Source of the DNA: Smithella sp.
Lineage (GTDB): Bacteria; Desulfobacterota; Syntrophia; Syntrophales; Smithellaceae
NCBI GenBank assembly: GCA_018056685.1
Contig: JAGPFC010000003.1
Coordinates: 62,001 to 126,000 of the forward strand
Length of the DNA: 64,000 nucleotides
Direction: 5' to 3'
The notes under the pieces were generated by a model. That model saw only the letters and a list, made by a program, of their open reading frames with translations. It ran no database searches and was not told the DNA's origin. Within the stretch, counting starts at the first letter, position 1. Each line of letters begins with the position of its first letter. Positions 17,821 through 32,661 of the stretch are shown here, one piece after another. Position numbers and translations under genes: made by a program.

Positions 17821-19269
17821 TTAGAAAGTAAGAGTCAGTTTATTCAGGATGATATAGTCATCGTGCACTTCACTGGTTTTGTCAAAACCTTTGAAATAAT
17901 CACCCGTGAAGAGATAACCAAATCCCAGCATGTAACTCAGGTTGTCGGTGATTTTGTAAGTTCCTGTAAGATCAATTTCCGTACCATATTCGTCAGAAAC
18001 GACGTCCGGAGCACCCATCAGGGTACTGTTGTCGGCCTTCGCATAAGAGAGAGAAGCCATGATGTCCAGTTTGTCGATGGGTTTCACACCCGCTCTGCCC
18101 TGAAAGAACCATGCATTGTACATCCCTGTGTCATTCAGATTATATTGCTGAGAGATGTAATTCATGTATGAACTGGTTACGTTATTACCGTAAATTGTCC
18201 CGACCCAGTAATGGCGCTGATTGTTAAATAAAAGCAGGGTGGGATTCCAGTCCATGCCACCTGTCAGGAAGCCGCCTGTTACTTTCTTCATTTTCCCCGA
18301 GTCATTTAAATGGCTCCAATCGTTGCCCGCAACATAAGCAACGCTTCCGCCAAAATAAACTTGATTCAAAACAACACTGGCATCAATCCAGGCGGCGAGA
18401 TTATCCACTTTTATATCCTGGCCTCGGGTGAAATCATTGACATCATCAGCCTTAATCTTGCCCCAGGCATAGTTGACTTCCGCCTGAATTTTAGCAGGAC
18501 CGAGCTGGATAATAGCGTAAGGTTCTAGAACATAAACATTTCCGGTAAAGCCAACGTCAGCGCCCATGAACGTTTGAGGCCTGGAGCTGGCTTCTCGATA
18601 GTAAACACCCAAAAGGCCGGCCTGACCGCCCTTCCATTCATAAAAAACTACCGCCTCATACTTGTCCGTATCGTTGTCCGTAACGGATGAAGCATACGCT
18701 CTGGTATAGCTGTTATCATTGAGTTTAAATGCTTGCAGGGCAACCGTCCAGCCCTTTGCCTGCGCGGCCCAGAGGATTCCCCCTTGCGGAACGGAGGTAT
18801 CTCCGAAGATAGTTCCCCAAGGGCCGTCATCCATGTAACCGACAGCAAACAAACCAATGGGAGAGGTGTATTCGACATAGGCGAGGTCGAAAGCAATGTT
18901 TTCATTATCCGCTCTTGACTGGGCTGATTGGAAGTCGTTTGGTCCATCCGGATCCGATCTCTTGGCGCCCCAACTTCTTTCCATGACATCGAAACGGGTG
19001 ACCATCTTGAGTGACGGTGAAACAATAAAATCAGTCTGCAAACGCAGTCTCTGATAAAAGAAGGCCGTGCTGGGAGAGCCATCGCTATACGTTGGATTCT
19101 GAAAGTCCGGCAGAGTCGCGAAATAGCCGTCTTTGACAAAAGTGGTTTTATCCAGATACATACCGGCAGCATAATAGGAACCGCTGAATTTGACATCGAC
19201 CGCCAGAGCCGATGCACTGAAGGCCATGATCAGCCCTAACGAAAACAAAACCAACCAAAATTTCTTCAT
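17821..19269 (-). CDS. Outer-membrane beta-barrel porin
   Basis: A cleavable signal peptide (residues 1-23, ending SALA) is followed by ~460 residues of alternating hydrophobic/polar strands rich in aromatic residues, ending in phenylalanine (LTLTF), the usual recognition signal for barrel assembly. Repeated Tyr/Trp-girdle strands and turns such as DNDTDKYEAVVFYEW support a 16- to 18-strand porin. It probably gives small solutes passage across the outer membrane. Substrate unknown. It has its own terminator and stands alone, though the aldolase and catabolic cluster begin on its other side. Confidence 0.85.
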   Translation of the reverse strand: MKKFWLVLFSLGLIMAFSASALAVDVKFSGSYYAAGMYLDKTTFVKDGYFATLPDFQNPTYSDGSPSTAFFYQRLRLQTDFIVSPSLKMVTRFDVMERSWGAKRSDPDGPNDFQSAQSRADNENIAFDLAYVEYTSPIGLFAVGYMDDGPWGTIFGDTSVPQGGILWAAQAKGWTVALQAFKLNDNSYTRAYASSVTDNDTDKYEAVVFYEWKGGQAGLLGVYYREASSRPQTFMGADVGFTGNVYVLEPYAIIQLGPAKIQAEVNYAWGKIKADDVNDFTRGQDIKVDNLAAWIDASVVLNQVYFGGSVAYVAGNDWSHLNDSGKMKKVTGGFLTGGMDWNPTLLLFNNQRHYWVGTIYGNNVTSSYMNYISQQYNLNDTGMYNAWFFQGRAGVKPIDKLDIMASLSYAKADNSTLMGAPDVVSDEYGTEIDLTGTYKITDNLSYMLGFGYLFTGDYFKGFDKTSEVHDDYIILNKLTLTF

Positions 19270-19392: not shown

Positions 19393-19455
19393 TTGACATC
19401 ATAAATAATCTACTATAAACATTAATTGAATGGCATTAAATTAATATTATTCAAT
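19393..19455 (+). promoter_or_regulatory. Promoter with covarying operator, left edge of the RLP cluster
   Basis: TTGACA (19393-19398) and TATAAA (19414-19419), 15 bases apart, make a plausible promoter for the aldolase gene. Just downstream is an inverted repeat, ATTGAAT (19425-19431) and ATTCAAT (19449-19455), with a 17-base spacer. A matching element lies at 27881-27911 at the other end of the cluster with the arms ATTTAAT/ATTAAAT and the same spacing. One position has changed on both arms, which indicates selection for symmetry, as expected for a dimeric repressor. The TetR protein at 25899 is the likely binder. Confidence 0.65.
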
Positions 19456-19539
19456 CATAAAGTCAACAAAAATTTCAAACTTTTTTGGGTCACATAATCA
19501 TTTAATAAAATTATAAATCAAGGAGATCATTCAATTTTT

Positions 19540-20229
19540 ATGAGCGAATACAGAAAATACAAGCAGGATGTTCTGGACGCAACGCAGTGGCTTTACCAGG
19601 AGGGCTATTTTGGATCGCAAAGGGGCAGCGGAGGTAATGTTTCCGTGCGGGTCAGGGAAACCGTTATGGCGATTACACCGTCATCGGTGAAATATCCTGA
19701 ACTTGTTGTGGAAGATATTTGCATTGTTGATCTGGACCTCTCGGTCATCGAAGAAAATCAAAAATTGAAACCTTCTGTGGAATCGGCAATGCACAGCATC
19801 ATTTACCGCAACAGACCGGACGTCAATGCCATTGTTCATACGCATCAGCCATACGGCAGCGTTTTCAGCCTGATTAACACATCGATACCGGCTCTTTTCG
19901 ATGAGGTTGCCTTTTCACTGGGGCAGACGATAGATGTCGTTCCTTATGCTCTTTCCGGCAGTTCTGAACTTGTGCACAATGTGGCCGCCAAACTGTCCAA
20001 TAACGCCAACGCCTACATCCTGCAGAACCATGGCATCTTAGCCTTGGGCAGGGATCTCGATAAGGCAATTCTGCATGCGGAACTTCTGGAAAAAGTTGCT
20101 CATATCTACTGTTTTGCGCTGTCCACCGGCAAGCCGGTGACCGCTCTTCCTGAATCAATTATCGCAGTGGTTAAATTAGTGAGAGACGGTGAAGTCGAGC
20201 AGGCGGCAAAAAAGAAGCAGGACAATTGA
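19540..20229 (+). CDS. Class II aldolase/adducin family protein
   Basis: This 229-residue enzyme resembles fuculose-phosphate aldolase, ribulose-phosphate epimerase and methylthioribulose-phosphate dehydratase. Zinc ligands are visible in VHTHQPYG (two His) and LQNHGIL (one His), with an acid in KPSVESAMH. Such enzymes split or epimerise phosphorylated ketoses, often releasing dihydroxyacetone phosphate and an aldehyde. It points toward the RuBisCO-like operon and shares an operator with its far end, so it probably acts after the FGGY kinase. The exact substrate is unknown. AAGGAG at 19520-19525 lies well upstream of the ATG. Confidence 0.85.
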   Translation: MSEYRKYKQDVLDATQWLYQEGYFGSQRGSGGNVSVRVRETVMAITPSSVKYPELVVEDICIVDLDLSVIEENQKLKPSVESAMHSIIYRNRPDVNAIVHTHQPYGSVFSLINTSIPALFDEVAFSLGQTIDVVPYALSGSSELVHNVAAKLSNNANAYILQNHGILALGRDLDKAILHAELLEKVAHIYCFALSTGKPVTALPESIIAVVKLVRDGEVEQAAKKKQDN

Positions 20230-20240
20230 TGTAAAATCTC

Positions 20241-21356
20241 TCAATTCTTCCGTGATGAAAATGCGCTCAGTAGAAGTCCCAGCATTCTTCCTACATCCAC
20301 GAGGATTTCAATCGTTATCGCGTCCAGAAAACTAAGCGAGGATAGATGGATATCCTTAAAAATAACCTTTGAGGCATCTTTCGAACACATATTGGTCTGA
20401 GTGGCGGCGTCCAGATGACTGTCCGGATCCATTTTCTGGAAAGCATTGATGAGTTCCTGGCCGAACTCATCAAGAAAAAAATAGAAAATTGATTTCATCT
20501 GTGTTGCTGCACGGTGCCTGTAAGCCTTGATGTCTCCCAAAACGTCACGTCTTTCGTTTTGTCCGATATTTGCTCCTTTCAGCAAGGCCTCTTTGAAGGG
20601 AGGGAATCCTTCGCGGAATCGGCGCTCCGCGTAAATTTCATAACCCTGATGGACGGCGGATAGAACCTGAAAAAGCTTATTGGACGAAAATAAATTCCTG
20701 ACCAAAAACAACGGGGGAACCGCGTAAACATGGAAAGGATTGCCCAGGTCGGCCAGATAATGCGTGCAGCGTGAAAGATACCGCCAGCCCCAATAATCAT
20801 TATTGTTTTCAAAGGCCTTTTGGGCAAGGTCTAAATGGACACGAAAGGACTCGGCCGCTATGCCGAATTTTTTACCGAGCACCCGGAATTGCATGTGCCG
20901 CCAACCGTGTGACCCGCCGGTGATTTTCTGATACCGGTGAAGATACAGATCACAGTCCGGATTCAAATCCGGTTCGGTCGTGTAGATCACGAGAATCTTC
21001 CAGGGTTCGATGGTTTTCTCGACCGGTGGTTCGACGCTGTATTGAGCGTTGCGTTCTGCATAGGAATAGGACGAAAGCAGGGGAAGGTTGCGGTCTTCCC
21101 GGTAAGATTCCTTGTAGCAATCGATGTGCTTGGGGCCCACAGGCCAACAATCCTTTTCGACATCGGGCTTGGGCTGAACCGGCACCGGCGGCAAGCCCAT
21201 GAGGTTGTCCAGAGCCTGCACGACAAAATACGTGATGTACTCATGGGAAAACCACGGCGCCCATGCTGAAGGCATTCGAGGATCGTCGTGCAGGTAATAG
21301 TCTGAATTTTGCATTTTTATAAATAGCCGGTGCGGATTGATCATCAAGCCCCGCAC
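20241..21356 (-). CDS. Zinc-dependent phospholipase C / S1-P1 nuclease-like protein
   Basis: The family is suggested by metal-ligand spacing: His199-x3-Asp203-x5-His209 in THYLADLGNPFH, and later His236-x3-Glu240 in VHQGYEIYAE. This is the pattern of the trinuclear zinc site in bacterial phospholipase C (His118, Asp122, His128, His142, Glu146 in the Bacillus enzyme). His38 and His154 could add ligands. Members cleave phosphodiesters in lipids or nucleic acids. Unlike most family members it has no clear signal peptide, so it may be cytoplasmic. It is the last gene of the RuBisCO-like operon, 30 bases after it. The start is uncertain: Met1 or Met5. Confidence 0.6.
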   Translation of the reverse strand: MRGLMINPHRLFIKMQNSDYYLHDDPRMPSAWAPWFSHEYITYFVVQALDNLMGLPPVPVQPKPDVEKDCWPVGPKHIDCYKESYREDRNLPLLSSYSYAERNAQYSVEPPVEKTIEPWKILVIYTTEPDLNPDCDLYLHRYQKITGGSHGWRHMQFRVLGKKFGIAAESFRVHLDLAQKAFENNNDYWGWRYLSRCTHYLADLGNPFHVYAVPPLFLVRNLFSSNKLFQVLSAVHQGYEIYAERRFREGFPPFKEALLKGANIGQNERRDVLGDIKAYRHRAATQMKSIFYFFLDEFGQELINAFQKMDPDSHLDAATQTNMCSKDASKVIFKDIHLSSLSFLDAITIEILVDVGRMLGLLLSAFSSRKN

Positions 21357-21386
21357 CGGCTTCCGGAATTCGTTTTGAATTTTCAG

Positions 21387-22730
21387 TTAAATTTTGAAAT
21401 CTGTCTTTTTGCCCCAGACGCCCAGCGCGACACCGAGTTCTTCATGCTCCTTGGCATATTCTTCCAGTTTGACGCCCTTCATGGCGGCATCAATGGCTTG
21501 GCGCAGAGCACGCGCGCCGGCTCTCGGTCCCTGAGGATGGGCATGTATGCCACCGCCTGACCCGATCATGATGTCCCTGCCCAGCGCGTTGACGATGTCC
21601 TGCACGTTTTGTGGCGTGATGCCGCCTGACGGCATGGGCATGGTCGGCTTGAGATTACCCATCGGATAAATCAGGTTGCGTGTTGTATTCATGAAACGCT
21701 CGTGCATGTAGATGGCTTTCCCGCCCATGGAGAAGGGGAGAACAATGGAATCCGCGCCGCACAGCCGGGCGATCTTGCCGAAAATGATCGGCGATGAAAT
21801 TCCCTGATAGGGGGACATGAAGAAAGCGCCGGCCACGTCCATATGGGCCAGAATCGGAACGTTGATCTGCGGGTCGTCAGCCAGGGCGCGCATGGCTTCG
21901 GGGCCGACGGCCAGGTAGTTGACCATCATGCCGTTTACGCCCGCGTCGACGCAGCGCTTCGCCAGATCGAACATTCGCGGCAGGCGGTCGGTAATATTCA
22001 CAGTATAGAGCGTGTGCTCGCCGGTTTCCTCAAACACTTCTTTTTCAATCTTCATGTAGGTTTTGACTCTTTTCACAGCGTCATTGTAACGCATGTTGGC
22101 AATCAGCTCGTCGTCCTTGATGACATCGCACCCGCCCAGCGCCGCTTCTCTGAAAAGTTTGGCGCCAACTTCCAGCGGATAGCCGCTGCACGGCTTAATC
22201 ATGTTATTGAGCAGCGGACGTCCTTTCTCGAGCCCCAGCGCTTTCCACCAGCCGTCGATTCCGAACCGGGGACCGTTGAACTGATCCAGGGTCGCCTTGG
22301 GGAGTCGGATATCCAGAAGCTTCAAATTGGGTACCAGGGAGATGTTACCGACCAGCGCCGTCAGCATCATGGGAAGCTGGTCTTCCACGTTGGCGGCGGG
22401 GAAGGCCACCTGGATGACATACTGGCGTGCGGTGACATCCGCCGGGACGCCGTATTCATAATAGGGTGCTTCGTAAACGCCCATGACCTTGGCGACGTGC
22501 TTCGCGCGTATCTCTGGTGTTTCTCCAGGTACCGGTGTCCAGGTTCCGGTGGTCTGTTCAATGGCGATCACCTGACTCATGACCGACGCGTCCCATGCCT
22601 TGTCCATCTGAGCCCAGTACGTGGCAATCAAGTGATTTTCCATATCAATGCTCTCCGGAATGGTGATGGGTTTGTCTGCGAAGGCATCAAAATCTTTTTT
22701 TACACAGATCGGTTCGTTCTTCTTTTTCAT
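21387..22730 (-). CDS. RuBisCO-like protein (form IV)
   Basis: The 447-residue protein has the RuBisCO large-subunit fold signatures: TGTWT at 61-65 with Glu58, Asn129, IKP at 178-180, GGCDVIKDDE at 199-208, loop 6 GGK at 336-338, SGG at 368-370 and GGG at 392-394. Relative to true RuBisCO (spinach numbering) it keeps K175, K201, D203, E204, a K334-like Lys338 and S379. K177 is Cys181. The HIHRAMH and HIHSG segments carrying H294, R295 and H327 are replaced (LAHMDVAG, IVLPFSM). It is therefore unlikely to fix CO2 and more likely enolises, isomerises or decarboxylates a phosphorylated sugar. Context: FGGY kinase, aminotransferase, class II aldolase. The known RLP pathways (methionine salvage, apionate) are not matched by these neighbours. 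AAGGAG precedes the start. Confidence 0.9.
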   Translation of the reverse strand: MKKKNEPICVKKDFDAFADKPITIPESIDMENHLIATYWAQMDKAWDASVMSQVIAIEQTTGTWTPVPGETPEIRAKHVAKVMGVYEAPYYEYGVPADVTARQYVIQVAFPAANVEDQLPMMLTALVGNISLVPNLKLLDIRLPKATLDQFNGPRFGIDGWWKALGLEKGRPLLNNMIKPCSGYPLEVGAKLFREAALGGCDVIKDDELIANMRYNDAVKRVKTYMKIEKEVFEETGEHTLYTVNITDRLPRMFDLAKRCVDAGVNGMMVNYLAVGPEAMRALADDPQINVPILAHMDVAGAFFMSPYQGISSPIIFGKIARLCGADSIVLPFSMGGKAIYMHERFMNTTRNLIYPMGNLKPTMPMPSGGITPQNVQDIVNALGRDIMIGSGGGIHAHPQGPRAGARALRQAIDAAMKGVKLEEYAKEHEELGVALGVWGKKTDFKI

Positions 22731-22765
22731 AAATGACTCCTTTTTTATTAATTATTTTTATGATG

Positions 22766-24175
22766 TTAGTTTTTTGGAATCAGCGAAAGCACGTATTCCC
22801 ATATGTCCAAAGTCTTTTTCAACGCGGCGTCATCGTGTTGCATGCAGGTATACATGCGGGTACCGGCCAGCGTGCACAATCCGTGAGCCATGGTTACCAC
22901 CTGATAATCGTCCGCGACCTGCTTGCGCGAAAAGATCTGGGTGAAGGCGTCGGGTGCATTCAAGTCTACGGAGAAAAACGCGGTTGTCATGTAATGCATG
23001 ATGGCGCCGAAATTATAAACAAAGAATCCCAGCTCGGGACGCGTAGCGAAAAGATCGTTCAGTGCCTGAGTCAGTTTGTCGGCGTAAGCTGTTGCCTTCG
23101 CTACCGCATCCTGTTCAACCATATATTTCAGGGCATAGTAACAGGCGGCCATGGAAATGGGGTTGGCAGCCAGTGTGCCGCCGACAAATATCTTGTCACC
23201 CAGACTGCCCGCGCACACCTTCATGACGTCTTTTCTGCCGGCGACCGCGCCAGAGGAGGGGTAACCATGCGTGATTATCTTACCCAGCACTGTCAGGTCA
23301 GGCAGGATGTTGAAATATTTCTGAGCGCCGCCCATGTCCAGCCTGAACCCGGTCACGACTTCATCAAAGATCATCAGCGATTCATACTGATCGCACAACT
23401 TGCGAATGGTTTTGTTCCATTCGGGATGAACCGGATGAGCGCCGGATTCACCGCCAATGGGTTCAACGAGCACGCCGGCAACACCACCCTTGTCCTGATT
23501 GTCCTTAAAGGCCTTTTCCAGTGCCTCGAAGTCATTGGGCGCTACATCCACCGTATGGGCATAATATTCCGGAGGGATGCCTTTGGATTCGAAATTGCCG
23601 GTCTTGGGAATGTGCACCGAATAGATCATCTGATCCGACCAGCCGTGATAGCTGCCGCCGATTTTGATGATTTTGAGTTTGCCCGTAAAGGCGCGGGCGA
23701 TTCGGACGGCGGCCATATCGGCTTCCGTGCCGGACTGGAGAAAACGCACCATTTCCACGCCGGGCATATGTTTGATGATTTCTTCAGCGGCCAGAAGTTC
23801 GTACTCGGATGTCAAACCGGTCGCCGGTCCTTTTTGCCGGATGATCTCAATAATTTTTTCATCAAGCGGTTCATAACCGTGCCCCAGCATAATGGGCGCG
23901 CCGCACATCAGATAGTCAATGTACTCGTTGCCATCCACGTCCCAGATCTTGTAACCTTTGGCGCGGTCCATGGCCAGAGGAAACGGTTTGTTCTGGCTTA
24001 AGTTGTGTTCGACGCCGCCGGGAATCAGGGATTTGGCTTTTTCAAAAATTTCTATCGAACGTTTGCAACGCTGGGCATAAAGTTTATGTTCCGCGTCGAG
24101 TTTATCCTTGGGAATCGGCTGCACCGGCCTCGACAAAATAAAATCTTTCCTTTTCATGATTTCCGCGTATTCCAT
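22766..24175 (-). CDS. Class III aminotransferase, glutamate-1-semialdehyde aminomutase-like
   Basis: This 469-residue PLP enzyme has the fold-type I class III pattern: GYKIWDVDGNEYIDYLM, SGTEADMAAVRIARAFTGK, SYHGWSDQ, IFDEVVTGFR and LGKIITHGYP, the last with the Schiff-base lysine. It resembles HemL, but substitutions around LGKIITHGYPSSGAVAGR and its place in a catabolic operon argue against heme synthesis. It may transaminate an aldehyde or ketone made by the cluster. I chose ATG 24175 because AGGAGG lies directly upstream; the frame continues upstream to 24226 without a ribosome site. It is 28 bases after the kinase gene. Confidence 0.87.
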   Translation of the reverse strand: MEYAEIMKRKDFILSRPVQPIPKDKLDAEHKLYAQRCKRSIEIFEKAKSLIPGGVEHNLSQNKPFPLAMDRAKGYKIWDVDGNEYIDYLMCGAPIMLGHGYEPLDEKIIEIIRQKGPATGLTSEYELLAAEEIIKHMPGVEMVRFLQSGTEADMAAVRIARAFTGKLKIIKIGGSYHGWSDQMIYSVHIPKTGNFESKGIPPEYYAHTVDVAPNDFEALEKAFKDNQDKGGVAGVLVEPIGGESGAHPVHPEWNKTIRKLCDQYESLMIFDEVVTGFRLDMGGAQKYFNILPDLTVLGKIITHGYPSSGAVAGRKDVMKVCAGSLGDKIFVGGTLAANPISMAACYYALKYMVEQDAVAKATAYADKLTQALNDLFATRPELGFFVYNFGAIMHYMTTAFFSVDLNAPDAFTQIFSRKQVADDYQVVTMAHGLCTLAGTRMYTCMQHDDAALKKTLDIWEYVLSLIPKN

Positions 24176-24203
24176 ATCTCTACCTCCTAAGATTGCATGG
24201 CGA

Positions 24204-25811
24204 CTATTGGGGCAGCGCACACACACCGGGTGCCCGCCTGTTGAGCCGCGCGCATGCTGTTTTCTGCGTTTTGTAATGATTTAAAAATTCGGCAAAAAGT
24301 TCATCATAAATCTTTCGATTATCGGGATTGGGCGTGTATTCCGCCTTTATTTTGATATCTTGAGGAATCTGTTCCAGGGTAATATATTTAAGAGCCATCG
24401 CGGCAAGAAATGCCGCACCGCGCGCGTTGGAATAGATCGGATCTTTCACCTGCCTGATTTTTCTTTCGAGGATATCAGCCATGATCTGCGACCACACATC
24501 GGAATTGGCGCCGCCGCCAATAAAGTTGATATGATCGAATGATCTTTTCATGAATTTCTCTATTGGACCGAGCAGCCATTTCGTATTGAACGCCACGCCT
24601 TCAAAGACAGACCGCAGGATGTCTTCCCTCGTATTTTCCAGCGAAAGGTTAAAGAGGGATGCGCGGATATGGCAATCGTCCACAGGCGAGCGTTCCCCGA
24701 AGAGCCAGGGGGTGAAAATAACGCTGTTGGAACCGGCCGGCGCGCGTCCCACGATTTTATCCAGCACCTTGAAAATATCCGGGGCCTTTTCATCCTTCAT
24801 CAGTTCATCTTTGTGATACAGAAAATTGTCTCTTAACCAGGTGAGGCATTTGCCGGCGCATTCCTGTTCCGAAAGAATAAGATAACGTCCCGGAAGCGGA
24901 CTCGGGAACGATCCGAAGTTGTGGATGATATCGGTTTTTTTGAAAGGAACATGGGCGGAGAGCCACGACGACGTTCCGATATAAAGATGGCCTTCATAGT
25001 CCCGTACCGCTCCGGATCCCACTCCCGCTGATGGCACATCCGGCGTTCCGCCGATAACCGGCGTATCCGGTTTCAGACCCAGGTCGGTGGCGATTTCTTT
25101 TTTTATCGGACCCAGGATATCCATCGCCCGGATGAGATCCGGCAGCTTGTCGCGTTCCAAACGGGCGATTTTCAAGAGTCTGTCGTTATAAACAACACGC
25201 AACGGATCACGATTATCCGTTACCCAGTGCAGCAGGATGGAATCCTGTGTGGCGGCAAATTTTCCCGTGAAGCGGAAGTTTATATAATCTTTCGGCTCGA
25301 GAAATTTATAGGTTTTGCGATACAGATCCGGACGGTTTTTTTTCAACCATAGAATGTGGCACAGGGAATCTTTACCGGAGTGTGATGGAGCACCACCAGT
25401 CAATTTCATCCAGGTCATGAATTTGAGCAGCGGGTAGCCCTCTATTTTAACAAGTCCGTCGAGTATTTCTTTGACGGCTTCTGCGCCCCGGCTGTCCATC
25501 CAGATCATGGCGTTCATCAGATGATTCCCTTCCGAATCCAGCGCGACAGTGCCGGACCATTGGGCAGTCACGCTTATGGCAACGATATTTTCAGGCGCGG
25601 TGAGTTCCCGCCGCAGCAATTTTTTGGCGGTGGACATGATGGCATTCCACCAGCCTTCCGGATTCTGTTCCGCTCCTCCACCGGGAAGCAGGATAATCGG
25701 CGTGTCCATAAATTCACTGCCGATCACTTCTCCGTATACCGAAACTAAAGCGGTCTTGGGACCGGACGTTCCCAAATCAACCGCCAGAATATATTTGTTT
25801 TTGTTTTCCAC
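24204..25811 (-). CDS. FGGY-family carbohydrate kinase (xylulokinase-like)
   Basis: The 535-residue protein has the two actin-like ATPase lobes of FGGY kinases. The first begins ILAVDLGTSGPKTALV; a central TPDVPSAGVGSGA and the C-terminal FIGGGANSDVWSQIMADILERKI and RGAAFLAAM complete the nucleotide site. The family phosphorylates sugars or polyols such as xylulose, ribulose or autoinducer-2. It should make the phosphorylated substrate used by the RuBisCO-like protein and aldolase nearby. The C-terminal 20 residues are basic and poorly conserved. 87 bases separate it from the TetR gene upstream. Confidence 0.87.
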   Translation of the reverse strand: MENKNKYILAVDLGTSGPKTALVSVYGEVIGSEFMDTPIILLPGGGAEQNPEGWWNAIMSTAKKLLRRELTAPENIVAISVTAQWSGTVALDSEGNHLMNAMIWMDSRGAEAVKEILDGLVKIEGYPLLKFMTWMKLTGGAPSHSGKDSLCHILWLKKNRPDLYRKTYKFLEPKDYINFRFTGKFAATQDSILLHWVTDNRDPLRVVYNDRLLKIARLERDKLPDLIRAMDILGPIKKEIATDLGLKPDTPVIGGTPDVPSAGVGSGAVRDYEGHLYIGTSSWLSAHVPFKKTDIIHNFGSFPSPLPGRYLILSEQECAGKCLTWLRDNFLYHKDELMKDEKAPDIFKVLDKIVGRAPAGSNSVIFTPWLFGERSPVDDCHIRASLFNLSLENTREDILRSVFEGVAFNTKWLLGPIEKFMKRSFDHINFIGGGANSDVWSQIMADILERKIRQVKDPIYSNARGAAFLAAMALKYITLEQIPQDIKIKAEYTPNPDNRKIYDELFAEFLNHYKTQKTACARLNRRAPGVCALPQ

Positions 25812-25898
25812 GAGCTAATCTCCTGACTGCATCAAATATGCTATGGAAAATGATGATCTTACCCGTCTTGATTCGTATCCTCAGGATCACCATGGAAT

Positions 25899-26534
25899 TT
25901 ATTTGGTGATCGATCGAATGATGTCGTCGACGATCTTCTTCAAAACAGTTTCCGTATCCCCGGCAACCTGATACAGAACACCGCTGTTGTGCAGAGAAAT
26001 TACGCCATGCAAAGCACTGATGATTTGAACGGCCAGAAGTTCTTCATCAACAGGCTTTAAATTCGGCTTCGTTTTTCTGTAATCCTTAATAACTTTGAGA
26101 GCAAAAGTCAGCACCTTGAGCGAATTATGAAATTCATCATCAGAGATTTTCTCCAATGGTGTGCCGACATAGTCACTATGTTGTTTGACGGGTCTGTTAA
26201 ACATGACGTCATAAATATTAATGTTCCGGGTACCGAATTGCACAAAGGAATTGACGATATTCCGTACTCGTTGCAGGGGGGTGTCGGATTTTTTTACGGA
26301 ATTACGAATTTCGTCATACAACATGGAGTAGGTTTTTTTGTGAATGGCAATAAGAAGCTCGTCTTTATTGGTATAGTAATTATAAAGATTGGCTGCCGTC
26401 ATGTTCATCTTGGAACCGAGCTTGGCCATGGATAAACTTTCAAATCCGTTTTTCTCGAGAATTTTAATGGCACAATCGAGGATTCGTTCGCGAACCGCAT
26501 CTATCTCTCCGAGACTTCGTGTTGTTTTGGGCAT
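25899..26534 (-). CDS. TetR-family transcriptional regulator
   Basis: The N-terminal helix-turn-helix (residues ~12-60) has the TetR signature ILEKNGFESLSMAKLGSKMNMTAANLYNYYTNKDELL. The C-terminal ligand-binding domain is helical, about 150 residues. It lies between the transporter and kinase genes of the RuBisCO-like operon, so it probably controls that cluster and binds the two matched operators at 19425-19455 and 27881-27911. The ligand could be the transported substrate or a pathway intermediate. This assignment is by position. Confidence 0.9.
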   Translation of the reverse strand: MPKTTRSLGEIDAVRERILDCAIKILEKNGFESLSMAKLGSKMNMTAANLYNYYTNKDELLIAIHKKTYSMLYDEIRNSVKKSDTPLQRVRNIVNSFVQFGTRNINIYDVMFNRPVKQHSDYVGTPLEKISDDEFHNSLKVLTFALKVIKDYRKTKPNLKPVDEELLAVQIISALHGVISLHNSGVLYQVAGDTETVLKKIVDDIIRSITK

Positions 26535-26564
26535 GATTAATATCCTTTTTGATTCGTATTTTTT

Positions 26565-27788
26565 TTAAATCTCATCCGTCTTTATCATTTTCGATTCATG
26601 AAGTCTAAGAACAATGAACACATTGAGGATCATCATGACCATGAAGATGAGCATGGCCGGCGTTTTCGGCGCTCCAGCGGCCGTCATGATGTCCATACCG
26701 AAAATAAATATTATTCCCGAAATCTGTCCGGCAAGAAGCAGCAGTCCCTGGGAAGTGGCCTCGGGCGCCGGATAAGATATTTCAGCGCTGTACTGAAATC
26801 CGATTGGCGCTGCCGCCATGAGAAAAAAGCCGGATATAAAGCATGAAGCAAGGAGCAGCCAGTAACTATTAGCAAACGTTAATCCCAAGATTCCGGGAAT
26901 AGAGCCAATCAACGTAATGACGATGAAAATTTTTCTTTTACGCCATTTATCGGAAAGAGGCGGCAAGGTCGCGGCACCGATGATGCCTCCGACCATCATG
27001 ATCGCTCCGCAAATGCCCGCTTCCGTAATGGAAAAGCCGCGCGGCCGGACAATTTGCTCAATCCAGGTCGTGACCGCGTTGAATATTCCAATGGAAATAA
27101 AAAATACAATAATCATATAGAGCATATCTCTTTGCTTGAGAATGTGTTTCAAACCTGCAAATACGGAGATTCTTTCGTCATGACCGGCGGGGCAGGGCGG
27201 TGTGGGGGGATGTTCTTTATTGAACAGTATAAAAATAACGGCGCCGGTAAGCGCGGCTGTTCCATAAAGCATCAGCATCTTTTCCATACCCCACGCTTTG
27301 AATAAGAATGGCGTGGCCACCATGGCTATAATAATACCAACAAATTGGGCCAAGACCGATATTCCGGCTTGCGTTGCGCGTTCTTGCAGGGGAAACCACC
27401 GTACGCCCACTTTGGTGACGGCATTGAGAACAAAAGGTTGTCCGATGGCAATTCCGATTTGAGCGATAATGATCATTTTGTAACTACTGCCGTAGAATCC
27501 TTTCATGAGGCCGAAGATGCCCATTAATAAAGCGCCGATGCCGATGCCGATTCTGATGCCCCATGTGTCAATGATATAAGATGCCGGAAAGGAGACGAAA
27601 AGATAAACGATCATAAAGATCAGGGAAAGCAAATCGATTTGCAAGGGGGAGACGTTGTAAAATGTGACCGCTTCACTGGTGATGGGCGCAAATGTTATCC
27701 ATTGAATCTGCATCAAAACATTAATTAAGAAATAAACCCCAAGGATGACCCATCTGTAGCCGTATACTTTAATTTCGGATTGTGCCAT
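26565..27788 (-). CDS. MFS transporter, FLVCR-like
   Basis: About twelve hydrophobic segments across 407 residues, with a hydrophilic central loop (PPTPPCPAGHDERIS), match the major facilitator superfamily. The first segment YRWVILGVYFLINVLMQIQWITFAPI resembles the FLVCR branch, whose animal members move choline, ethanolamine or heme. Bacterial substrates are unclear. It is the first gene of the six-gene operon, 93 bases downstream of the operator, and is likely the importer for the pathway substrate. AAGGAT upstream of ATG 27788 is an adequate ribosome site. Confidence 0.85.
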   Translation of the reverse strand: MAQSEIKVYGYRWVILGVYFLINVLMQIQWITFAPITSEAVTFYNVSPLQIDLLSLIFMIVYLFVSFPASYIIDTWGIRIGIGIGALLMGIFGLMKGFYGSSYKMIIIAQIGIAIGQPFVLNAVTKVGVRWFPLQERATQAGISVLAQFVGIIIAMVATPFLFKAWGMEKMLMLYGTAALTGAVIFILFNKEHPPTPPCPAGHDERISVFAGLKHILKQRDMLYMIIVFFISIGIFNAVTTWIEQIVRPRGFSITEAGICGAIMMVGGIIGAATLPPLSDKWRKRKIFIVITLIGSIPGILGLTFANSYWLLLASCFISGFFLMAAAPIGFQYSAEISYPAPEATSQGLLLLAGQISGIIFIFGMDIMTAAGAPKTPAMLIFMVMMILNVFIVLRLHESKMIKTDEI

Positions 27789-27880
27789 TTTCGATCCTTA
27801 ATTGTATCTCGCCTAAACACCTAATTCCCGATTGTTTTAAAAAAAGCTTGCTTTTTAAAAAAATATTGTTATAAGCGTTA

Positions 27881-27911
27881 ATTTAATGGCATTAAGTTAA
27901 TATAATTAAAT
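27881..27911. promoter_or_regulatory. Covarying operator, right edge of the RLP cluster
   Basis: ATTTAAT (27881-27887) and ATTAAAT (27905-27911) flank the 17-base spacer GGCATTAAGTTAATATA, which matches the element at 19425-19455 at all but two spacer positions. Similarity extends to both sides (TTAA before, ATAAAGTCAA after). It lies between the divergent transporter operon and the DUF2147 gene and could regulate both. Confidence 0.7.
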
Positions 27912-27984
27912 TATAAAGTCAATGACTTTTTTGGCGTTGAGTAAAGATTTTTTTGTAACGAGAACCGTCAGGAGGGATAGATCG

Positions 27985-28470
27985 ATGAAAAAAATTTTTA
28001 TGCCGGTCATTATTTGTTTCTTCGTCGTTGGATTATTCAGTATTTCTGCAAGATCCCAAAACCCCGCCAATCCACAAAATCCGATTGTCGGAACATGGGA
28101 AACCATCGATGACGAAGGTCCGAACAAAGGGAAAGCATCATCTTACATAGAAATATTTGAGAACAGCGGTGTCTATTCCGGTAAAATTGTCAAACTCCTT
28201 CTCGATCCCCCCGATAAGATTTGTCTTCAATGTAAAGGAAATTTAAAAAATAAACCGCTCATTGGAATGAAAATTTTAGATAGCATGAAAAAAACTGGCA
28301 ACGTGGATCAAAAACTCGGAGCAGAATATAGCGGTGGGACGATCCTGGATCCCGATTCGGGAGCCACTTATAAATGCAAAATGTGGGTAAGGGATAACGT
28401 CCTGACTGCTCGAGGATATATCGGAATCAGCTTGCTGGGCAGGTCCCAGCAATGGCACAGGGTTAAATGA
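27985..28470 (+). CDS. DUF2147 exported protein
   Basis: The 161-residue protein has a signal peptide (1-24) and the DUF2147 pattern: IVGTWET near the start, EIFENSGVYSGKIVKLL, CLQCKGNLKNKPLIGM, YSGGTILDPDSGATYKCKMWV and RGYIGISLLGRSQQWHRV at the end. Members are periplasmic, about 130-160 residues, and of unknown function. The start at 27985 is supported by AGGAGGG about 10 bases upstream and by the signal peptide; the frame extends further upstream. It precedes the two ceramidase genes on the same strand by 37 bases, so the three may form an operon. Confidence 0.88.
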   Translation: MKKIFMPVIICFFVVGLFSISARSQNPANPQNPIVGTWETIDDEGPNKGKASSYIEIFENSGVYSGKIVKLLLDPPDKICLQCKGNLKNKPLIGMKILDSMKKTGNVDQKLGAEYSGGTILDPDSGATYKCKMWVRDNVLTARGYIGISLLGRSQQWHRVK

Positions 28471-28507
28471 TGAAAGAATCATCGATAACAAAAAAGGAGG
28501 GGCTTTT

Positions 28508-30526
28508 ATGTTTAAATTAAGAATGATTCTTGTGATGTTGATTTTTGCTGCTCTGATGATTGTTCCCGCACCAGGTTTTACGTCAACATATCTGATCGGC
28601 ACAGGGATATATGACATTACCGGACCGGCAGCGGAATGCGGTATGATGGGTTATTTCATGCCTGATCAGGTCACCGAAGGCATCCATACGAGATTGAGGT
28701 CCCGGGCCTTTGTGGTTGTTGATCCCCGGAGCGGCAAGCGGGTGGCGCTGGTCATTGCAGAAGCCGGGATTATTCCCCAAGGTATCAATCAGGCGGTTGT
28801 TAAAAAACTGTTGACCAAATACAACGGCCTTTACACGGACCAAAACGTGACCATCAGTGCGACACACACCCATTCCGGTCCCGGCGCTTATTCCCATTAT
28901 GCCCTGTATAATCTCTCCATGTTTGGATATGACGAAAAACACTTCAACACCGTTGCCGAAGGGATCTATCAGTCCATTGTCAGAGCGCATAACAATCTCA
29001 GACCCGGTGATATCCGGATCAACAGGGGAGAATTGAACCATTGCGGCTGGAACCGTTCGTCTCTGGCCTATGAGGAAAATCCGGATGAGGAAAAAGCACG
29101 ATACAATTCCAACACGGATAAAACCATGACTCTTTTGCGATTCGTTGCCACGGATGGGTCCGATCTCGGTACGGTCAACTGGTTTGCCGTCCATCCGACC
29201 AGTGTAGGAAATACCAATAAACTCATCAGCGGTGATAATAAAGGGTATGCCGCCTATTTATTTGAAAAACAAATAGGGACCAATTATGCGGCGGCTGATA
29301 CCTTTGTGGCCGCGTTTGCGATCAGTAATGCCGGCGACGTTTCTCCCAATATTTACTGGGGATATCCCAATGGCGTTGATGATTACGAGCATATGAAAAT
29401 CATCGGCGAGTGCCAGTATTACAAGGCGATCGAATTGTTTAATGAAGCCGATGTCAATTTGGCCGGGTCCGTCGATTACCGACACATGTATGTGGATATG
29501 TCGAATCAGTCTATCAGTCCCGCCTTCATGCCGCCGGATCATTCCGGCGCTGGGAAAACCTGTGTAGCGGCTATCGGCGCCTCCGTGCTGGCCGGCAGCA
29601 CCGAAGATGGGAAAGGTATCGATATTCCCGAAGGGCTCACGTACCCTTATGATATCTCCGTGCTGGGTAATCCGTACAAGTTGGCATTCACGATCTCTCC
29701 TTTGGACCAGCAATGTCAGGGTAAAAAACCCATTGTGCTGCCCACTGGCAGAATCAAATTCCTGGGCATTCCGATGACACCTGAAGTGCTGCCTGTTCAG
29801 ATTTTGAAGATCGGCAATCTTGCCATTATCGCCATGCCGACGGAAATAACCACGATGGCCGGCCGTCGACTGCAGGAAACGGTCATGAACGCTCTGGGTG
29901 ATCAAGTGGATTATGTGGTGATCGCAGCACTTTCCAATGCCTATGCTGAATATGTGTCTACTTATGAAGAATACAACGTGCAGCACTATGAAGGCGCATC
30001 CACCCATTTCGGCCCCTATACCTTAAACGCTTTTCAGGAAAAATTCGATTACATCGCACGAGCCATGAAAAACGGTGTTTCAGTCAGTCCGGGTCCAACG
30101 CCGAGAGATATATCGGGCAGCCAGCTGATCAAAATTCCGGGAGTTGCGTTTGACGACAAGCCTCTGTCCAAAAGTTTTGGTTCTGTGGAGACGGATGCTG
30201 CCGCCTCATATACCAGAGGCCAGACCGTCAGCGTGACATTTTGGGGCGGACACCCCAAGAACAATTACCAGATTCAGAAGACATTTTTGAAAGTGGAAAA
30301 AATTACTCCGACCGGAGCCGTCACCGTGGCCAACGATTGGGATCCCGAAACCCGTTATTACTGGAAACGCTCTGGAACTGCCAATTCAAAAATCACGATC
30401 GAGTGGGATACAACCGATGCGGTTCCCGGAACGTATCGCATCAGACATTATGGCCACTGGAAATCCGGTTGGACCGGCGCCATTACCCCTTATGAGGGGG
30501 TATCGCGAACCTTTACTGTACATTAA
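28508..30526 (+). CDS. Neutral ceramidase family hydrolase, first copy
   Basis: Neutral ceramidases split ceramide into sphingosine and fatty acid using zinc. A signal peptide (1-25) indicates export. Zinc ligands are in SATHTHSGPG (His120, His122), WFAVHP (His229) and the later PTEITTMAGRR glutamate. The expected catalytic serine is Ser279 in NAGDVSPN. The C-terminal ~140 residues form the immunoglobulin-like domain typical of the family (TFWGGHPKNN, YRIRHYGHWKSGW). At 672 residues it is full length. A second copy follows after 77 bases. The true substrate might be another N-acyl lipid. Confidence 0.9.
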   Translation: MFKLRMILVMLIFAALMIVPAPGFTSTYLIGTGIYDITGPAAECGMMGYFMPDQVTEGIHTRLRSRAFVVVDPRSGKRVALVIAEAGIIPQGINQAVVKKLLTKYNGLYTDQNVTISATHTHSGPGAYSHYALYNLSMFGYDEKHFNTVAEGIYQSIVRAHNNLRPGDIRINRGELNHCGWNRSSLAYEENPDEEKARYNSNTDKTMTLLRFVATDGSDLGTVNWFAVHPTSVGNTNKLISGDNKGYAAYLFEKQIGTNYAAADTFVAAFAISNAGDVSPNIYWGYPNGVDDYEHMKIIGECQYYKAIELFNEADVNLAGSVDYRHMYVDMSNQSISPAFMPPDHSGAGKTCVAAIGASVLAGSTEDGKGIDIPEGLTYPYDISVLGNPYKLAFTISPLDQQCQGKKPIVLPTGRIKFLGIPMTPEVLPVQILKIGNLAIIAMPTEITTMAGRRLQETVMNALGDQVDYVVIAALSNAYAEYVSTYEEYNVQHYEGASTHFGPYTLNAFQEKFDYIARAMKNGVSVSPGPTPRDISGSQLIKIPGVAFDDKPLSKSFGSVETDAAASYTRGQTVSVTFWGGHPKNNYQIQKTFLKVEKITPTGAVTVANDWDPETRYYWKRSGTANSKITIEWDTTDAVPGTYRIRHYGHWKSGWTGAITPYEGVSRTFTVH

Positions 30527-30603
30527 TGTTCATTCCAGGGTGACAGTGAATAAAGGATGCTAAATGGGTGAAGAATCTTCGATAAGCAAAAAGGAGGATC
30601 TTA

Positions 30604-32661
30604 ATGTTTAAAATGAGAATGATTCTTGTCATGTTTTTTTTTACTGCTTTTATGATCGTTCCCGTACCGGGGTTTACGTCAACGTATCTGATCGGTTCAG
30701 GGATTTATGATATAACCGGAACGGCTGGCGAAATCGTTATGGAGGCATTTGCCGTGAGTTCTCAGAAAACAGCCGGCATCCATACGAGATTAAGGTCGCG
30801 GGCGTTTGTGGTTGGTGACGGAACAAATCGGGTCGTCTTTGTCAGTGCCGATCTCGGCATGATGTTTCAAATGGTAAAAATAAAAGTGTGTGAGAAAATC
30901 GCTGATGATCCGGTGCTGTCACCCTTCTATAATGAAAAAAATGTCCTCCTTTCCGCGACTCATACCCATAATGATCCGGGTGGTTACTCGGGATATTTTC
31001 TCTACGATTCCCACGTACAGGGCTTTGTCCGGCAGAATTTCAATGCCATTGTCAACGGCATCTACATGTCCATAAAAAATGCCCATGGTAATTTGAAACC
31101 CGGGAAGATATTGATTAATCAGGGAACGATTGAAGGCTGCGGCGGAAATCGTGCTGAACCTCCCTATAACAATAATCCCGCCGGGGAAATAGCCCAATAC
31201 TCAAGCAACACCGATAAAACCATGACCCTCCTTAAATTTGTAGCCCTGGATGGAGAGGAAATCGGCACATTGAACTGGTACGCGGTGCATCCGGACAGTA
31301 TCGGACCGGACAATCATCTCATTAGCTCAGATAACAAGGGATGGGCTTCCTACTTGTTTGAAAAAGACAAGGGGACCAATTATCAGGCCTCCAGAACGTT
31401 TGTCGCAGCGTTTGCCCAGACGAACGCCGGAGATGTAACGCCGAATATTGGCTATGGCCAGGCTCCCCAATATGTGACCTTTGCCCAAAATCCAAGCCTG
31501 AAGAACGCTGTCTTGAAGCAGTATAACAAAGCCAAAACATTATACGATAACGCTTCAAAAGAATTATCGGGGTCCGTTGATTACCGGCATGAATGGGTGG
31601 ATATGAGAACGCTGTATGTCGAAACAGCCGGTACCACAACATGTGCCGCCGGCATGGGAGCATCTTTTGCCGCCGGGAGCCCTTACGATAACCCAAGCCC
31701 GTTTCCATTATTTCCAAATGGTACCACGGTGAACAGCTTGAACTGGAACGACGATGCTGCCCGCACGGCTTTAAACAGCTTGCTGGGTGGTATGTTCGCT
31801 TTTGCCTGGCCGGCAACCGCTAATGCAGCTTATCAGGAATGCCATGCGGAAAAACCAATTCTTATTCCAACAGGCGTTGCGCATCTTAATATCAGTGGTC
31901 CGACGATGACCCCGCAGATTGTTCCTCTGCAAGTATTGAAAATCGGTAACCTGGCGATTGCCGGTGTGCCTGCGGAAGTGACCACCATGGCCGGACGCCG
32001 GATAAAGAAAACCATCCTTTCTTCTCTTAGCCCAATCGGCGTTAATTATGCCGTTGTAGCAGCGCTGGCCAATACGTATACGTCTTACCTTGCCACCCGG
32101 GAAGAGTATGCCATGCAGTGGTATGAAGGGGCCTGTACGCAGTTTGGCCCAAATGAACTGGCCGCGTTCCAGCAGGAATATACGAAACTCTGCAATGCCA
32201 TTGCAGATGGCACAGACGTTGATCCGGGACCAACCCCGGAAGATATAACGGGGCAAACTGTCGACTTTACCGCGAAGGTTGTATTTGACGATGTGCCACT
32301 CGGCAAAAATTTCGGTAGTGTTTATACGCAGCCGAAAACAAGTTATACACGTGGTGAAACTGTAAGCGCCGTATTCTGGGGAGGACATCCCAACAACGAT
32401 CTGAGAACCCAGGACACATTCCTCGTCATTGAAAAGCTTAAAGGTGGCGTTTATGTTCCTGTCGCGAGAGACTGGGATCCAGAAACCACGTATAACTGGG
32501 CGCGAAATTCCATTGCCTATTCCAGAATAACGATTACCTGGGACACTACCAATGCGACGCCGGGAATATACCGAATTCGACATAAGGGAAATTGGAAGTC
32601 GGGTTGGACGCGCAAGATCAGCCCGTATGAAGGCGTTACGAATTCATTTGTTCTCAATTAA
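30604..32661 (+). CDS. Neutral ceramidase family hydrolase, second copy with Ser-to-Thr change
   Basis: A paralogue of the preceding gene: the signal peptide and first 40 residues are nearly the same (TSTYLIGSGIYDIT) and the zinc ligands are kept (SATHTH at 118-122, YAVHP, PAEVTTMAGRR). The catalytic position reads GDVTPN, with Thr279 instead of Ser. HTHNDPG also replaces HTHSGPG. Threonine can sometimes serve as nucleophile, so it may be active, altered in specificity, or weak. It has an extra ~30-residue insert around residue 360. AGGAGG ribosome sites precede both copies, which arose by tandem duplication. A terminator follows. Confidence 0.88.
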   Translation: MFKMRMILVMFFFTAFMIVPVPGFTSTYLIGSGIYDITGTAGEIVMEAFAVSSQKTAGIHTRLRSRAFVVGDGTNRVVFVSADLGMMFQMVKIKVCEKIADDPVLSPFYNEKNVLLSATHTHNDPGGYSGYFLYDSHVQGFVRQNFNAIVNGIYMSIKNAHGNLKPGKILINQGTIEGCGGNRAEPPYNNNPAGEIAQYSSNTDKTMTLLKFVALDGEEIGTLNWYAVHPDSIGPDNHLISSDNKGWASYLFEKDKGTNYQASRTFVAAFAQTNAGDVTPNIGYGQAPQYVTFAQNPSLKNAVLKQYNKAKTLYDNASKELSGSVDYRHEWVDMRTLYVETAGTTTCAAGMGASFAAGSPYDNPSPFPLFPNGTTVNSLNWNDDAARTALNSLLGGMFAFAWPATANAAYQECHAEKPILIPTGVAHLNISGPTMTPQIVPLQVLKIGNLAIAGVPAEVTTMAGRRIKKTILSSLSPIGVNYAVVAALANTYTSYLATREEYAMQWYEGACTQFGPNELAAFQQEYTKLCNAIADGTDVDPGPTPEDITGQTVDFTAKVVFDDVPLGKNFGSVYTQPKTSYTRGETVSAVFWGGHPNNDLRTQDTFLVIEKLKGGVYVPVARDWDPETTYNWARNSIAYSRITITWDTTNATPGIYRIRHKGNWKSGWTRKISPYEGVTNSFVLN

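Follow-up and report, generated by a model that had tools for sequence, protein, structure and literature searches.

A 64,000-nucleotide stretch of Smithella sp. DNA, called the window here, contains a block of genes centered on a RuBisCO-like protein (RLP). The locus is a real, undescribed and co-regulated RLP module. Our preferred, tentative interpretation is that it forms a TetR-controlled regulon that lets syntrophic anaerobes grow on N-acylated long-chain amino alcohols, with ceramides and their liberated sphingoid bases as the most likely substrates. The substrate is likely a lipid amide, with a sphingoid base as the most likely candidate. The window (C40:62001-126000) comes from a 3.19-Mb, 68-contig metagenome-assembled genome (MAG; G000) that is 91% complete, so the absence of a gene from this genome is not absolute. 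We found no paper on such a cluster, whether an RLP with the aminotransferase or FGGY kinase, with ceramidases or sphingoid bases, or in these taxa, in a literature search that left subscription journals largely outside.

The gene block, its operators and its conservation

The core of the block comprises seven intact open reading frames (ORFs). Six lie on the minus strand in the order major facilitator superfamily (MFS) transporter (26565..27788), TetR-family regulator (25899..26534), FGGY sugar or polyol kinase (24204..25811), class III aminotransferase (22766..24226), RLP (21387..22730) and zinc phospholipase C (PLC)-like protein (20241..21356), and a class II aldolase gene (19540..20229, plus strand) opposes them tail to tail. 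The original prediction had described a six-gene operon facing a class II aldolase, and the ORFs, strands and families are confirmed: in profile searches, Aldolase_II, RuBisCO_large, Aminotran_3, FGGY_N/C, TetR_N and MFS_1 all score over their Pfam cut-offs. The aldolase (PF00596, 3.8e-48) belongs to the superfamily of fuculose-1-phosphate aldolase and MtnB, reaches none of the mtnB cut-offs, and is the sole PF00596 match in the genome. The aminotransferase (PF00202, 5e-53) is of the glutamate-1-semialdehyde (GSA) type, and orthologs of 469 amino acids suggest a start near 24175. Xylulokinase and gluconokinase are the nearest models for the kinase (PF00370/PF02782), and the TetR protein (PF00440) is the presumed partner of both operators described below. 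The transporter, encoded by the first gene of the operon, resembles the FLVCR (choline/ethanolamine) kind (FLVCR1, 3e-33).

The zinc-PLC-like protein lacks a signal peptide and has no match in Pfam or NCBIfam and no sequence match in the Protein Data Bank (PDB), so its fold assignment rests on a predicted structure. The AlphaFold model (pLDDT 79) resembles B. cereus PC-PLC (1ah7) with Z 14.2 over 212 residues at 3.1 A and S1/P1 nucleases with Z up to 9.7, whereas the next fold scores only 3.3. Tryptophan, histidine, aspartate and glutamate residues are invariant in an alignment of 16 sequences. Judged from the model, the protein has the zinc PLC/S1-P1 nuclease fold, which bears out its earlier description as phospholipase C-like; a phosphodiesterase role is putative. 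Ortholog alignment suggests that its true start is ~14 codons downstream.

Two operators, neither assigned to a strand, flank this core. Operator 1 (19414..19466) has a palindromic core at 19422-19444 (TTAATTGAATGGCATTAAATTAA) and an overlapping second half, and operator 2 (27870..27922) has its core at 27878-27900 (TTAATTTAATGGCATTAAGTTAA); together they form a 53-bp near-repeat of 87% identity. The palindromic core of operator 2 has two zero-mismatch sites in the whole genome, both in the window, and a reversed control pattern has zero sites genome-wide. Matched operators had been predicted, and this part stands, but the regulon is larger than was supposed. Operator 1 separates the aldolase gene from a divergent gene for an outer-membrane porin of the Desulfovibrio-porin type (17821..19269, minus strand; NCBIfam DESULF_POR1, 4e-16, under the cut-off). 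Operator 2 separates the MFS operon from plus-strand genes (27922-32661) for a DUF2147 protein with a signal peptide (27922..28470; PF09917, 4e-28; likely start near 27985) and two neutral ceramidases. The regulon in the window thus holds the porin, the aldolase, the six-gene operon, the DUF2147 protein and both ceramidases.

Conservation was assessed at the class level among 155 genomes, in which loci carry L labels and genomes G labels. RLP orthologs (62-94%) occur in 22 of these genomes, as a patchy trait, and named relatives of the locus come from Syntrophaceae, Smithellaceae, Desulfobacterales, other Deltaproteobacteria and two Spirochaetes MAGs. MAGs assigned to Thermodesulfobacteriota, Spirochaetota and Myxococcota share the gene order FGGY kinase, aminotransferase, RLP, and this persistence across phyla argues for a real module. 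A lack of co-conservation had been named as grounds for abandoning the idea of a cluster. In the 21 loci whose RLP is at least 80% identical, several of which are interrupted by contig ends, the genes found next to the RLP are instead those for the FGGY kinase (19 loci), the aminotransferase (18), the zinc-PLC-like protein (16), the TetR protein (13), the MFS transporter (11) and the aldolase (9). Orthologs of the zinc-PLC-like protein are present in 14/22 RLP-containing and 2/133 RLP-lacking genomes (Fisher 1e-12, with related genomes not independent). In L031 and L074, a saccharopine-dehydrogenase-like gene replaces the aminotransferase alongside the kinase and RLP; such enzymes are another type able to interconvert amines and ketones.

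The operator element is also found in relatives, where it precedes MFS, TetR, FGGY, short-chain dehydrogenase/reductase (SDR) and aldolase genes. The porin gene adjoins the aldolase gene, ald2, in L024, L026, L027, L032 and L053, with the operator between them in L024, L027 and L053; the DUF2147 gene adjoins the MFS gene in L024, L027, L091, L100 and L139, with a conserved operator between them in L024, L027, L100 and L139. The TetR gene has its own upstream operator in L024, L029, L034 and L045, and the aldolase keeps its own where it lies 2-4 kb from the RLP operon (L028, L036, L038, L039). A separate short contig of G015 carries DUF2147, operator and MFS, and represents the missing end of its operon. 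A relaxed search of 21 genomes found the operator in RLP-containing genomes; among seven RLP-negative congeners and family members it appeared only in G010, with a mismatch and in a different context. Similar palindromes with one mismatch occur at G000:C3:26097 and G010:C154:2383, each between similarly sized minus-strand ORFs. We set these weak sites aside as probably belonging to another regulator, perhaps a paralogous TetR protein.

Some observations concern neighboring or degraded copies. The zinc-PLC-like gene of L026 (L026:5146-6071) is apparently frameshifted, lying in two pieces in different frames, through mutation or assembly error. Orthologs of this gene occur without an RLP in L106 (G024:C35) and L107 (G033:C27), next to dnaB/rplI-like genes, and L107 retains the aldolase; the same site holds the whole operon in L028, L029 and L034. 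These copies look like remnants after operon loss, or reflect an independent role of the PLC-fold protein. Just past the porin, at 13206-17480 of the window, are genes for a 1424-amino acid histidine kinase with about seven PAS domains and an adjoining PAS-HD response regulator.

The RuBisCO-like protein

The RLP (PF00016, 5e-43) is the genome's only RuBisCO-family gene product. In RuBisCO numbering, it has the carbamate lysine, metal ligands and loop-6 lysine (K201, D203, E204 and K334), with K334 placed by sequence alignment in a loop one residue longer. Its P1 phosphate site and catalytic residues are kept and its P2 phosphate site is lost. Close orthologs retain E60, T65, W66, N123, K175, K201, D203, E204, H294, K334, S379, G381, G403 and G404, and in them R295 is Met, H327 is Val, K177 is Cys and H298 is mostly Ala; among members further away, W66, R295, H327 and S379 are variable. 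In RuBisCO structures, R295 and H327 hold the second phosphate. Because these residues are lost, the substrate probably carries one phosphate and an uncharged tail.

Several established identities were considered for this protein and rejected. As a RuBisCO of form I-III, it has an incomplete two-phosphate active site (R295M, H298A and H327V, shared with close orthologs), and it scores 250 bits against a cut-off of 497 with the type III model. MtnW is its best-scoring curated model, but the scores are 324.5 bits against a cut-off of 409 (NF007095) and 281.9 against 513.6 (TIGR03332), and the RLP keeps E60, N123 and K334, which MtnW lacks. Nor does its genomic company fit MtnW, as the MtnK/MtnA/MtnB/MtnX/MtnD set is not around it and MtnA is found only in a gatA/gatB locus. 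OiaX, the 3-oxo-isoapionate-4-phosphate decarboxylase, and other DUF1537-linked RLPs likewise lie next to a kinase in a substrate-induced catabolic operon. However, the RLP scores 177 bits against a cut-off of 700, no DUF1537 kinase was found anywhere in the genome in a search with PF07005, and R295, which those RLPs keep, is lost; OiaX has D60 and G123 and retains R295 and K334.

In a phylogenetic tree, the clade of FGGY-linked RLPs (17 rows) has 100/100 support, as does the aminotransferase core (11 rows), and both stand apart from the OiaX/DUF1537 RLPs; the position of MtnW is unsure because of its long branch. Membership of a characterized class had been offered as another way in which the proposal could fail; the RLP instead falls in a separate clade, in a tree whose reference set is without the Rhodospirillum-type MTRu-1-P isomerase and form IV-Photo RLPs. 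Co-conservation, shared operators, model cut-offs, active-site residues and the tree thus all support a catabolic cluster around an RLP that is unlike the described RLP pathways.

The cluster had also been said to lack mtnA, mtnK, mtnP and a DUF1537 kinase. The last is absent genome-wide, but an MtnA homologue does exist, beside gatA/gatB and away from the operon. A highly improbable explanation is a variant of methylthioadenosine (MTA) or 5-deoxyribose salvage, in which the RLP would act on methylthio- or deoxy-ribulose 1-phosphate, MtnA would be supplied from elsewhere and this aldolase would make dihydroxyacetone phosphate (DHAP). Within methionine salvage, the aldolase and RLP are closest to MtnB and MtnW, the genome has only one class II aldolase, and the 5-deoxyribose route uses a fuculose-1-phosphate-type aldolase, DrdA, that cleaves deoxy-ribulose phosphate (PMC6079011). 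On the other hand, there is no operator at the MtnA locus, the operon has no MtnK-type kinase and no MTA phosphorylase or nucleosidase, salvage is normally constitutive and not linked to ceramidases, and the RLP is missing from 133/155 class genomes.

Related RLPs occur in other settings. In L086 and L087, an RLP with intact catalytic residues lies with two PEP-hydrolase-like proteins, a thiamine pyrophosphate enzyme and a TRAP transporter, in an apparently undescribed neighborhood. In L075 and L078, one of them in a genome (G006) of the window's own genus, the RLP adjoins an FGGY_C_2 kinase and a histidine phosphatase.

Ceramidases and the candidate substrate

Ceramidase 1 (28508..30526, plus strand; PF04734, 4e-166; NF041649, 1e-140) has a signal peptide and the canonical NAGDVSPN motif, and scores below the 1200-bit equivalog cut-off of NF041649. 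Ceramidase 2 (30604..32661, plus strand; PF04734, 6e-147) also has a neutral ceramidase domain, with Thr in the NxGDVSPN motif position (NAGDVTPN). The genes are tandem duplicates: their starts and upstream regions (28464-28722 and 30561-30818) share 77-79% DNA identity, and the proteins are 50% identical.

Only 4 of the 155 class genomes have a strong neutral ceramidase, and in three congeneric genomes it is beside the operon. In G000, operator 2 separates it from the divergent operon; the G003 copy sits within the operon, between the MFS and TetR genes; and G002 has it next to DUF2147, MFS and TetR genes. The G002 copy is 84% identical to ceramidase 2; this genome was counted as RLP-negative because its contig ends inside the FGGY gene. 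The fourth genome (G058) carries a diverged ceramidase on a short contig of its own. The chance of a random ceramidase within 5 kb of the 8.4-kb block is ~0.006 per genome, although the adjacency counts as one to two independent events because the three genomes are congeneric. This positional and operator evidence, rather than genome-level co-occurrence, carries the ceramidase case.

Other observations extend the lipid link. In G027, an unlinked operator lies between an SDR gene, 79% identical to one near other clusters, and a gene for an amidohydrolase with a twin-arginine signal. FadL, MetA-type and DUF1302 outer-membrane proteins adjoin the loci of relatives, and suit a hydrophobic substrate. 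In L031 (389-16476), the RLP operon is flanked by several sulfatase-family genes, an MFS gene and genes for an SBP_bac_5 protein and a DUF1302 outer-membrane protein.

The original prediction had guessed at a sugar or polyol derived from a lipid headgroup. Its lipid link stands, as the ceramidases share an operator with the operon, but a long-chain amino alcohol itself fits better because ceramidases or an exported amidohydrolase are co-controlled, the second phosphate site of the RLP is lost, and hydrophobic outer-membrane transporters accompany the locus in some relatives. A possible but less favored scheme, close to that guess, is that lipases or the PLC-fold protein free a small or polar amino-polyol, either an amino sugar alcohol or the headgroup of a phospholipid or archaeal lipid. 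After import by the FLVCR-like protein, deamination would give a ketose, which would be phosphorylated before the RLP rearranges it and the aldolase cleaves it. Sugars are the normal substrates of FGGY kinases and class II aldolases, the zinc-PLC fold is in keeping with headgroup release, and more distant RLPs of the phylum have a solute-binding protein and a pair of FGGY kinases as neighbors. The transporter's nearest relatives of known structure are the choline/ethanolamine transporters FLVCR1/2, and it retains the aligned Trp and Gln of their ligand site, with Y349 changed to Asn. The scheme is harder to reconcile with the amide hydrolases under the same operator, the Met/Ala/Val P2 site of the RLP, the FadL-type neighbors and a PLC-fold protein without a signal peptide.

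Amide hydrolases in the regulon are compatible with more than one kind of amine, and the same order of enzymes could serve another N-acylated hydrophobic amine, such as an amino-hopanoid, a capnine-type sulfonolipid or an N-acyl-serinol. Sulfatases beside L030/L031, an SCP-2 protein beside L043 and the resemblance of the SDR to steroid/retinol dehydrogenases are in its favor. We consider this unlikely, given that both hydrolases in the window reach 1e-140 or better with models of neutral ceramidases and that serinol would yield DHAP, making the RLP unneeded.

Several points weigh against ceramides and sphingoid bases as the substrates. Ceramidase linkage is limited to one genus, with none within ~10 kb of the other loci, and two related Myxococcota/Spirochaetota loci have sulfatases instead. 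Genome-level co-occurrence of ceramidase and RLP is modest (6/22 versus 9/133, p = 0.009, with related genomes not independent), and ceramidase 2 and the G003 copy carry Thr for the motif Ser. The structural relatives of the MFS protein transport small amines. The best PDB relatives of the aminotransferase are GSA aminomutases (1e-69), which are nearer than the sphingoid-analogue enzyme FumI (6hbs, 3e-28), so FumI is not its closest relative. Two Smithellaceae loci hold the RLP and zinc-PLC-like genes without FGGY and aminotransferase orthologs, and mis-binning is a risk with contigs of MAGs. Because sphinganine lacks a C4 hydroxyl, an ordinary retro-aldol reaction fits only 4-hydroxy bases.

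A proposed pathway and its implications

Sphingoid bases are 2-amino-1,3-diols, and FGGY kinases phosphorylate ketose heads. If ceramides are the substrates, exported amide hydrolases (the two ceramidases, or the Tat-exported amidohydrolase in a relative) would free the base and a fatty acid, and the porin, DUF2147 protein and FLVCR-like transporter would import the base. The aminotransferase would convert the C2 amine to a ketone, giving a 1,3-dihydroxy-2-ketone (CH2OH-CO-CHOH-R), which is a ketose head on a fatty tail, and the FGGY kinase would phosphorylate C1. The RLP would hold this phosphate in its intact P1 site, with the tail where RuBisCO binds the second phosphate, and could remove the C3 proton as RuBisCO does with RuBP, generating a 2,3-enediol for isomerization, epimerization or further conversion. 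C-C cleavage or dehydration by the aldolase may then give a fatty aldehyde or acid together with a C3 phosphate, for example DHAP, and the zinc-PLC-fold protein might strip phosphate or a phospho-headgroup; these last three steps may run in another order.

In the original prediction, amination was the final step. Deamination ahead of the kinase and RLP fits better, as it gives the C2 ketone that both need. As transamination makes the ketose head directly, it also explains a set of kinase, RLP and aldolase without a sugar isomerase. A precedent by analogy is FumI of Sphingopyxis, which shares the class III fold; in an O2-independent reaction with pyruvate, it removes the C2 amino group from a sphingoid analogue, a 2-amino-3-hydroxy compound with a long chain (PMC2933618).

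From 4-hydroxy bases, the aldolase could release DHAP and a fatty aldehyde, in the way that DrdA acts on deoxy-ribulose phosphate. The proposed pathway resembles 5-deoxyribose disposal by DrdK-DrdI-DrdA in using a kinase, an isomerizing step and a fuculose-1-phosphate-type aldolase to give DHAP and an aldehyde, but the operon has no DrdI/MtnA, and has the RLP and aminotransferase in its place. Bases without the 4-hydroxyl might be cut after isomerization by the RLP, or through carboxylation by the RLP itself. Retro-Claisen and acireductone routes, by analogy with methionine salvage, were rejected for these bases, as no hydrolase or dioxygenase was found in the cluster. The carboxylation idea is a quite improbable one: the RLP would enolize the C1-phosphorylated 2-keto-3-hydroxy base, add CO2 to C2 and cut between C2 and C3, releasing 3-phosphoglycerate and a fatty acid. 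The retained E60, N123, K175, K201, D203, E204, H294 and K334 and the lost tail-phosphate site are compatible with it. If true, RuBisCO chemistry would serve O2-free sphingolipid breakdown.

Two further systems invite comparison. Bacillus MtnB-MtnW-MtnX similarly combines a class II aldolase-fold enzyme, an RLP and a phosphatase that work on a 1-phospho-2-ketone whose tail is uncharged, but here the kinase is of the FGGY family, the ketone would come from an aminotransferase rather than an isomerase, and there is no dioxygenase. As with SphR, CerN and SphBCD of P. aeruginosa, a ceramidase appears co-regulated with sphingoid-base metabolism; SphBCD, however, comprise a periplasmic cytochrome/oxidoreductase and a pyridoxal phosphate aldolase, whereas the operon in the window encodes a kinase, an aminotransferase and an RLP. 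Even in P. aeruginosa, sphingosine metabolism leads to a product that is unidentified (PMC11893366).

No PF00282-family match was found in the 91% complete MAG, and hence no sphingosine-1-phosphate (S1P) lyase. Sphingoid-base breakdown without S1P lyase and the anaerobic mineralization of sphingolipids are unsettled questions, and for a bacterium from oxygen-free habitats the breakdown of ceramide-type membrane lipids would be an undescribed route. The RLP clade, with its catalytic residues kept and one phosphate site lost, provides a natural test of the residues that separate enolization, isomerization and carboxylation. If our interpretation is correct, the patchy gene module would be a marker of sphingolipid turnover in sediments, groundwater and digesters, and the RuBisCO superfamily would gain a role in lipid breakdown.

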